A DNA stretch of 64,000 bases from Pseudobutyrivibrio xylanivorans DSM 14809 (GTDB taxonomy: Bacteria > Bacillota > Clostridia > Lachnospirales > Lachnospiraceae). The notes below the pieces were generated by a model, which worked only from the letters and a program-made list of their open reading frames with translations, was not told the origin of the DNA and ran no database searches. This document shows, in pieces, positions 10,238 through 57,061 of this stretch. The first letter of the stretch is position 1; each line of letters begins with the position of its first letter. A program made the translations under genes and the position numbers. The DNA is taken from contig NZ_FQYQ01000006.1 of the NCBI RefSeq assembly GCF_900141825.1, forward strand, positions 1-64,000, in the 5' to 3' direction.

Positions 10238-10324
10238 GCTGGTCACGATAACAAGCATTATGATTTCTCCGCTCAGCTGAAGAAAGCTTCGCTTAAGAAA
10301 TATAATAGCTTGTTATCTACCAGC
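10238..10324 (-). repeat. Structured intercistronic palindrome, copy A
   Basis: An 87-base imperfect palindrome in the plsY-gpsA gap. Outer arms GCTGGT/ACCAGC, then a 3-by-1 bulge, then GATAACAAGC/GCTTGTTATC, ATTAT/ATAAT, ATTTCT/AGAAAT, an internal loop, two short helices and an apical loop. The same architecture with compensating base changes occurs at 37457-37542 and 56976-57061. It has no open frame and no T tract, so it is not a simple terminator. Confidence 0.8.
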
Positions 10325-37456: not shown

Positions 37457-37542
37457 GCTGGTTACGATCTCAATCCTGAGATATTGCTTTCGTCGACTAA
37501 CACGTCTCCTACAGCAACACTCAGAGATTGATATCTACCAGC
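37457..37542 (-). repeat. Structured intercistronic palindrome, copy C
   Basis: 86 bases between rnc and smc. Outer arms GCTGGT/ACCAGC and the same 3-by-1 bulge as copies A and B, then GATCTCAATC/GATTGATATC (one mismatch), TGAG/CTCA, TTGCT/AGCAA, an internal loop, GAC/GTC and an apical loop. Inner sequences differ from copies A and B but pair to the same plan. It starts 13 bases after the rnc stop and ends 42 bases before smc. Confidence 0.78.
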
Positions 37543-56975: not shown

Positions 56976-57061
56976 GCTAGTTACGTAAACAATCCTTAGT
57001 ATTTCTCCGCTCACCTAAAAACGGTTCGCTTAAGAAATCTAAGAGATTGTTTACTACTAGC
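56976..57061 (-). repeat. Structured intercistronic palindrome, copy B
   Basis: 86 bases in the ispG-polC gap. Outer arms GCTAGT/ACTAGC, the 3-by-1 bulge, GTAAACAATC/GATTGTTTAC, TTAG/CTAA, ATTTCT/AGAAAT, internal loop, GC/GC, ACC/GGT. Compared with copy A, each change in a stem is matched on the other arm. It ends 26 bases before the polC start codon. Confidence 0.8.

Follow-up and report, generated by a model that had tools for sequence, protein, structure and literature searches.

Three related hairpins at gene boundaries

The window, that is, the whole stretch of DNA analysed, comprises the first 64,000 nucleotides (nt) of contig NZ_FQYQ01000006.1 from Pseudobutyrivibrio xylanivorans DSM 14809 (assembly GCF_900141825.1). 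It contains three copies, termed A, B and C, of a palindromic hairpin element that belongs to a dispersed family. Since the neighbouring genes lie on the minus strand, we took this strand as the sense of a possible RNA. In this direction, with gene names from NCBIfam, copy A follows plsY and precedes gpsA, copy B lies between rnc and smc, and copy C between ispG and polC (the PlsY assignment scored 1.8 bits below its cut-off).

The original prediction, made from the letters of the sequence, had described these three units as covarying palindromes. Their places and lengths of 87, 86 and 86 nt were confirmed, as were the outer arms GCTRGT and ACYAGC, a 1x3 loop inside the stem, a helix of 10 bp and apical stems that differ from copy to copy. 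The matching partner arms described for the second helix are indeed present in general, but copy B has one A.G mismatch there. Similarly, the proposed distance of 26-42 nt to the next start codon agrees with the values measured (29 nt for A, 42 nt for B and, to an ATG, 26 nt for C), but falls to 11 nt for copy C if the TTG start chosen in the open reading frame (ORF) list is used.

Read in the sense direction, the fold begins with an outer helix P1 (6 bp), a 1x3 loop (A opposite GUR) and a helix P2 (10 bp); beyond a bulged U follow a long upper stem and an apical part, the latter usually with a GA...GA internal loop (a loose pattern of this kind, indicative only, fits 234 of 242 distinct copies). 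Predicted RNA folding energies of the minus strand were -39.2, -40.6 and -38.6 kcal/mol for A, B and C (z -6.4 to -7.9), and none of 200 shuffles folded equally well. The plus strands likewise fold well (z -6.3 to -8.8), as is usual for palindromes. The features are given below with scores of R1, a covariance model built from the three window copies, and with conservation in 107 distinct alignment rows or 242 distinct copies.

10238 to 10324, minus strand: copy A, 87 nt, between plsY and gpsA in the intercistronic form, flanked by AA / GTA (R1 99.5 bits)
10319 to 10324, minus strand: copy A, 5' arm of P1, GCTGGT in the sense direction (sequence; P1 99.2% paired in 107 distinct rows)
10318, minus strand: copy A, unpaired A7 (identical in 242 of 242 distinct copies)
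10308 to 10317, minus strand: copy A, 5' arm of P2, GATAACAAGC (sequence and alignment)
10307, minus strand: copy A, U18 bulge (236 of 242 distinct copies have T here)
10247 to 10256, minus strand: copy A, 3' arm of P2, GCTTGTTATC (sequence and alignment)
10244 to 10246, minus strand: copy A, three-base side GTG of the 1x3 internal loop (GTA or GTG in 238 of 242)
10238 to 10243, minus strand: copy A, 3' arm of P1, ACCAGC (sequence and alignment)
37457 to 37542, minus strand: copy B, 86 nt, between rnc and smc in the intercistronic form, flanked by TGA / GGA (R1 84.5 bits)
56976 to 57061, minus strand: copy C, 86 nt, between ispG and polC in the intercistronic form, flanked by TGA / GGT (R1 105.1 bits)

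A genus-specific family with covarying stems

The original prediction had proposed a covariance-model search for further copies in this genome and in relatives, and both were found. In the 3.42-Mb genome of the window (G000; other Pseudobutyrivibrio genomes are numbered G001, G002, G003, G028 and so on), R1 detected 43 copies at E <= 4.4e-9, including A, B and C, and the next match was a single one at E = 2. Relatives of gpsA point to Pseudobutyrivibrio as the genus. Across it, 28 of 29 Pseudobutyrivibrio genomes had matches, with 0 to 141 copies each and at least 1,602 in total; these counts rest on the best 150 candidates scored per genome and are possibly low. A second model built from 108 copies, R2, counted 145 copies in G028, 71 in G003, 52 in G001 and 35 in G002. 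The unit length ranged from 52 to 89 nt in 163 copies, 161 of which measured 80-90 nt, and reached at most 94 nt in a further set.

Outside the genus, the element was not recovered. In a Lachnospiraceae sample, R2 matched 2 of 397 genomes, both Pseudobutyrivibrio, and none of the 395 others, while R1 matched 4 of 299 genomes, two of them Pseudobutyrivibrio and two judged chance; strict filters and the best 11 to 15 candidates per genome were used, so that diverged or rare relatives could be missed. The two chance matches (L139 and L140, E ~0.005) were, by eye, another hairpin and a coding-like sequence; of their genomes, G031 had no R2 match and G209 was not among the R2 matches, though possibly outside the R2 sample. 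Two early pattern matches at G000 contig ends (L001 and L005) were also dropped, since they were not among the model matches. The sequences of L001 (C10:1-1576) and L005 (C29:61838-63909) are the same, run into what look like tRNA genes, and are probably a repeat that broke the assembly. On this sampling, the element forms a dispersed hairpin family specific to the genus.

We examined the structure in A6, an alignment of 108 rows (107 distinct) fitted to R1. Standard pairs filled 95.6% of the cells, compared with 69.8% after shuffling and at most 46.8% when partners were slid against each other. Changes on both sides of a pair numbered 798 versus 193 in shuffles, both sides varied in 30 of the 33 pairs, and the covariation score was 0.649, as opposed to 0.170 for shuffled and at most 0.091 for slid alignments. 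The proposed change of stem bases in pairs therefore stands far above both controls, of which the shuffles ignore relatedness. Without any fitting to the structure, at offsets fixed relative to the ends, 99% of P1 cells and 92.6% of P2 cells were paired over 104 distinct copies. The outer arms nearly always pair even though their sequences are diverse: the first 12-mers took 181 different forms in 242 distinct copies.

Alongside these variable stems, the unpaired positions A7, U18 and GTA/GTG are nearly constant, at the frequencies given in the feature list. Some paired positions are equally constant, namely C13, A14, A15 and their partners (106 of the 107 rows). The constancy of the unpaired bases suggests that the element has one set three-dimensional fold or binds a protein; the GUR/A loop may resemble the bulged-G module of loop E. 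For an abundant RNA-like element of a rumen genus, with 43 copies here and up to 145 in a relative, so strict a set of unpaired bases means that a binding partner or a specific fold can be tested for directly.

Known non-autonomous repeats of about 100 nt that are intergenic and can fold include ERIC/IRU, Correia/NEMIS, BOX, RUP and bcr1; some are active in mRNA, and they are generally recognised by sequence similarity between copies. Set apart from these by description only, our element has copies that average 0.65-0.73 identity within a genome and differ by paired changes. The original prediction had recognised no named family, and at the gathering scores of Rfam 15 no family fell on the element in the window (the sole window match was a tRNA) or in 16 further loci. 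A permissive Rfam scan of 801 bases around copy A gave three matches, all far below their cut-offs. No description of the element was found in the open-licence literature of PubMed Central (PMC), a scope that excludes subscription journals and preprints, and the word Butyrivibrio is absent from the main texts of PMC3733652 and PMC12306157. The family is hence without a description in the literature covered, and the original observation was right and understated.

Gene context, strand and the outer stem

The copies in G000 comprised 27 in sense orientation between co-directional genes, 11 between convergent genes, four antisense, none between divergent genes and one without an assigned context. 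Among 90 of the 123 copies of G001 and G003 (52 of 52 and 38 of 71, respectively), the corresponding numbers were 68 co-directional sense, 15 convergent, five antisense and two divergent. Over the three genomes, co-directional copies were therefore sense in 95 cases and antisense in nine. Among copies with a sense gene upstream, the stop codon of that gene lay within 60 nt in 33 of 39 cases in G000 and 65 of 83 in G001 and G003 (medians 15 and 21 nt), and the next gene started within 60 nt at 50 of 68 co-directional sites in G001 and G003.

The strand is also distinguished within the stems. Were the hairpin to act as double-stranded DNA, G-T and A-C oppositions would be expected to be equally common, yet on the sense strand G-U exceeded A-C by 80 to 8 with three loose pairs left out, by 102 to 10 over all pairs and by 91 to 11 at fixed offsets in 242 copies (these are counts of sequences, not of events). 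A single-strand DNA hairpin would give the same G-U sign, but the sense bias makes RNA likelier. Taken together, the excess of G-U and the sense bias of co-directional copies indicate that selection seems to act on the transcribed strand.

A replication-strand bias, suggested by copies that follow the chromosome arms, was considered and set aside, since gene sense fits better (a small sample, judged by eye). Among seven convergent pairs of G003, also by eye, five were oriented with and two against the regional trend; of five antisense copies, all from G001, three ran against it, one with it, and one was ambiguous. At the 3' end of mutS2, G007 (L412) and G023 (L416) carry copies antisense to mutS2 directly past its stop codon, the G023 copy having an A-run before it and a T-run after it.

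The outer stem depends on gene context. In G001 and G003, P1 was extended by at least three further pairs in 13 of 15 convergent copies, 9 of 18 co-directional copies with a far next gene and 4 of 50 close-operon copies (convergent versus close-operon, Fisher 1e-8). The same held in G000, where 38 of 43 copies were classed (the four antisense copies and the one without assigned context being left out): an extension was present in 10 of 11 convergent but only 5 of 19 close-operon copies (p 0.002), and in 3 of 8 copies with a far next gene. An extension combined with at least four T was found in 3 of 15 convergent, 6 of 18 far co-directional and none of 50 close-operon copies of G001 and G003; in all, 26 of 83 sense-context copies were extended and 9 of 83 had both features.

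In place of the extension, the 50 close-operon sites showed a few recurrent flanks: GA/GG at 22, AA/GTA at six, a 5' TA with any 3' side at nine, and others at nine. The window copies have no stem extension and belong to the classes AA/GTA (A) and GA/GG (B and C). An A opposite G at positions -1/+1 was the commonest mismatch beside P1 (66 of 104 copies, all contexts). Copies with an extended stem and a T-run after a stop codon are like intrinsic (Rho-independent) terminators, but the family differs from these in its large conserved multi-helix cap and in the many operon copies with an interrupted stem.

Orthologous sites, dispersal and interpretation

The genes that flank the window copies allowed a comparison of corresponding sites. 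For gpsA, 25 Pseudobutyrivibrio loci were compared, of which L060 lacks upstream sequence, and R1 detected the element ahead of the gene in 13. For smc and polC (28 and 27 genomes, by eye), many species carry it in the same upstream intergenic region and orientation, others have a short intergenic region, and some have half an element (the right half in G005 and the left half in G020, both at smc). One copy has lost its apex in G004 and is complete in G024. Upstream of polC in G028 (L200), a long insertion rich in hairpins sits in the apical part of the element.

Comparison of 30 of the 35 copies of G002 with 38 of the 71 of G003 yielded 11 orthologous sites that are filled in both. At eight of them the cores were 96-100% identical, and at three they differed (0.64-0.80 identity). 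The eight retained cores differed at 6 of 672 positions (0.9%), compared with 7.6% in flanks at 60-400 nt and 12.7% in the nearest 40 nt. At the three replaced cores, the near left flank was 0.53-0.63 identical and the near right flank 0.76-0.97. Between G000 and G001, ten pairs matched on both flanks. Three sites with stems extended by at least four pairs had core identities of 0.89-0.94; L047, extended only beyond a bulged base, had 0.94, and L023, with three added pairs in G000 and two in G001, had 0.87. The five unextended sites had cores of only 0.57-0.78, including those at smc and gpsA (the latter 0.71, with flanks at 92-93%).

Sites also differ in occupancy. When 21 G003 sites were compared by eye with the corresponding G002 blocks, nine were filled in both (two of these with replaced cores), while the G002 side otherwise had two half-copies, six short intergenic regions without the element, one inverted copy, one other repeat and two ambiguous cases. 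At one place (G003:C1:646469 and G002:C15:251172), the element with its arms (100 bp, 98% identical) is inverted between these close species. The difference between 35 copies in G002 and 71 in G003 requires gain, loss or both. At mutS2, the TAG-TGTGA junction is uninterrupted in G020 and G013, whereas the element lies between two TAG words in G028 and between TAA and TAG in G000 and G005; this comparison shows either a gain or a loss. The word AGCGTAA stands on both sides of the gpsA element in some species, and further synteny comparisons of filled and empty sites gave no consistent rule of target-site duplication.

Among the copies compared within genomes, recent copying of the ordinary kind was not apparent. 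The best pair was 0.90-0.94 identical and the mean 0.65-0.72 in G000, G001, G002 and G003; in G028 (30 of 145 copies) these values were 0.952 and 0.73. No near-identical resident copies were thus present among those compared (43 of 43, 52 of 52, 30 of 35, 38 of 71 and 30 of 145), pairs among the rest being possible, and with best pairs of 0.90-0.95 the replaced cores were not copied from any resident compared. The clearest sign of a unit copied within a genome is given by four two-tier nested composites in G028, with inner cores at 0.92-0.95 identity. Nesting was also seen in a G028 copy enclosed by a terminator-like outer element and in a nested pair common to G003 and G002. An automatic search returned 3 nested cases in 243, with about 0.7 expected from a control of 57 in 20,000 mismatched flank pairs; the other cases were found by eye. 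Two patterns of the element had no match in viral contigs. The element likely spreads somehow.

The original prediction had left a choice between a conserved RNA element and a mobile hairpin family. Sense orientation and the excess of G-U over A-C support the former, and the copy-number range, nesting and replacement at orthologous sites point indirectly to the latter. We consider that the copies are probably, although far from certainly, transcribed and structure-selected RNA hairpin modules placed at gene 3' ends and between cistrons in this one genus. A transcribed 3'-end element best explains the strand-specific covariation, the constant unpaired bases, the sense bias, the position behind stop codons and the way the outer stem varies with gene context. 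Usually at convergent pairs, and at half of the sites with a far next gene, P1 continues into flanking pairs, with a T-run in some copies, and this extended form could be the body of an intrinsic terminator. In operons, mismatches beside P1 usually stop the outer stem, so that no terminator would form there. The operon hairpin would then most likely mark and protect the 3' end of the upstream cistron as a barrier to 3'-5' exonucleases, or may be a substrate of RNase III, and a protected upstream 3' end could uncouple neighbouring genes. Between stabilisation, RNase III processing and partial termination in operons, the sequence cannot tell.

Several observations weigh against this 3'-end reading. 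Some close-operon copies have extended stems (4 of 50 in G001 and G003, 5 of 19 in G000), and few copies pass the combined test of extension and T-run, so that for the majority a terminator role cannot be taken as established. Nine copies lie antisense and two between divergent genes, and gene context itself rests on simple home-made ORF calls. Because the copies were collected with models built on the structure, paired fractions are biased towards it, and the slow change of cores was measured on pairs chosen for a core identity >0.9. In addition, some sites show no trace of the element in a close relative, and it is therefore dispensable at single sites.

We weighed other explanations against the same data. 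The repetitive extragenic palindromes (REPs) of the GTAG type would make the element a non-autonomous DNA transposon moved by a Y1 transposase (the REP-associated tyrosine transposase, RAYT), its RNA features being by-products of a place after genes. As PMC3733652 describes them, REPs lie mostly after coding regions and between co-directional or convergent genes, and are suggested to be transcribed. Our element shares this distribution, the dispersed post-coding palindrome, a word resembling GTAG towards the 5' side (in 178 of 242 distinct copies, positions 5-8 read GTAG) and head-to-head pairs, which occur in G028. However, it is about 86 nt long with units mostly of 80-90 nt, several helices and near-constant unpaired bases, rather than 20-40 bp, and its G5-T6 is paired in P1 (99.2% of cells) instead of forming an unpaired foot. 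Its outer arms vary widely yet pair, near-identical resident copies are lacking among those compared, and the asymmetry of G-U and A-C points to one strand. The suggested association with a RAYT was not borne out either: the Y1_Tnp family (PF01797) gave no match in G000, while 10 of the 29 genomes of the genus and 5 of 14 control genomes had some, and R2 found no element in 18 loci around the Y1 transposase genes of the genus. We therefore regard a REP-like origin as unlikely. Structure-recognised recombination sites similar to integron attC, that is, single-stranded DNA hairpins with extra-helical bases that serve cassette exchange, would account for a structure kept while sequence varies, for the extra-helical bases, for the place directly after stop codons and for cores replaced beside a mostly unchanged near right flank. 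Yet the copies are dispersed rather than arrayed, sites include housekeeping operons, and the AAC...GTT core ends of attC are not present, which leaves this idea with next to no likelihood.

Covariation could also arise without RNA selection if template switching on hairpin DNA copied one arm of a neutral quasi-palindrome to the other. Wobble is rare in P1 (4 G-U cells over six pairs in A6), and apical deletions in hairpins do occur, as between G004 and G024; both would fit. But arm copying would remove imperfections, whereas A7, GUR and U18 rank with the most constant positions, and these constant unpaired bases already largely refute it. Nor does it predict the 95:9 sense bias or the excess of G-U, and retained cores in the selected pairs change about eight times less than their flanks, so that we judge it very improbable. 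Finally, a trans-regulated attenuator, bound by a protein or ligand, could control read-through into the downstream gene, in keeping with the closeness of that gene at 50 of 68 sites and with the constant unpaired bases. Against this, the named neighbours (plsY, gpsA, rnc, smc, ispG, polC, mutS2 and nrdD) have no obvious common function, one genome holds up to 145 copies, and 26 of 133 examined copies lie at convergent ends with nothing downstream to regulate; such a role is decidedly improbable.

Frozen orthologs, wholesale replacement and the lack of near-identical copies among those compared fit poorly with a usual spreading repeat, and the family therefore offers a test case for the ways in which structured repeats spread and turn into terminators or intercistronic mRNA elements. 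It is conceivable, but doubtful, that the element is a stackable hairpin without sequence-conserved ends, in which each spread or exchange writes new complementary outer arms, modules insert into apexes, and a whole core may be replaced at an otherwise kept site. If so, it would need a hitherto unknown means of dispersal that acts on the hairpin structure itself. Single-stranded hairpins might be exchanged, for example, or one arm might be re-synthesised from the other, with the RNA fold then selected.

Two further observations concern repeats. Close pairs of the element in opposite, head-to-head orientation lie at G028:C1 331340/331434, 390222/390320, 654652/654755 and 1271389/1271611, and also at L130, L145 and L244; they resemble paired REP units. 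A second dispersed, GC-rich structured repeat (GGCAAGCGCGAGCAGG...GGGAGCATG) occurs at the same intergenic places, with matches at L242:1359-1371, L043:59-71, L116, L240, L370 and L375. By eye, it is also present in G002 within L362 and upstream of polC in G024 (L204) and G006 (L207), and in G024 it apparently replaces the element.
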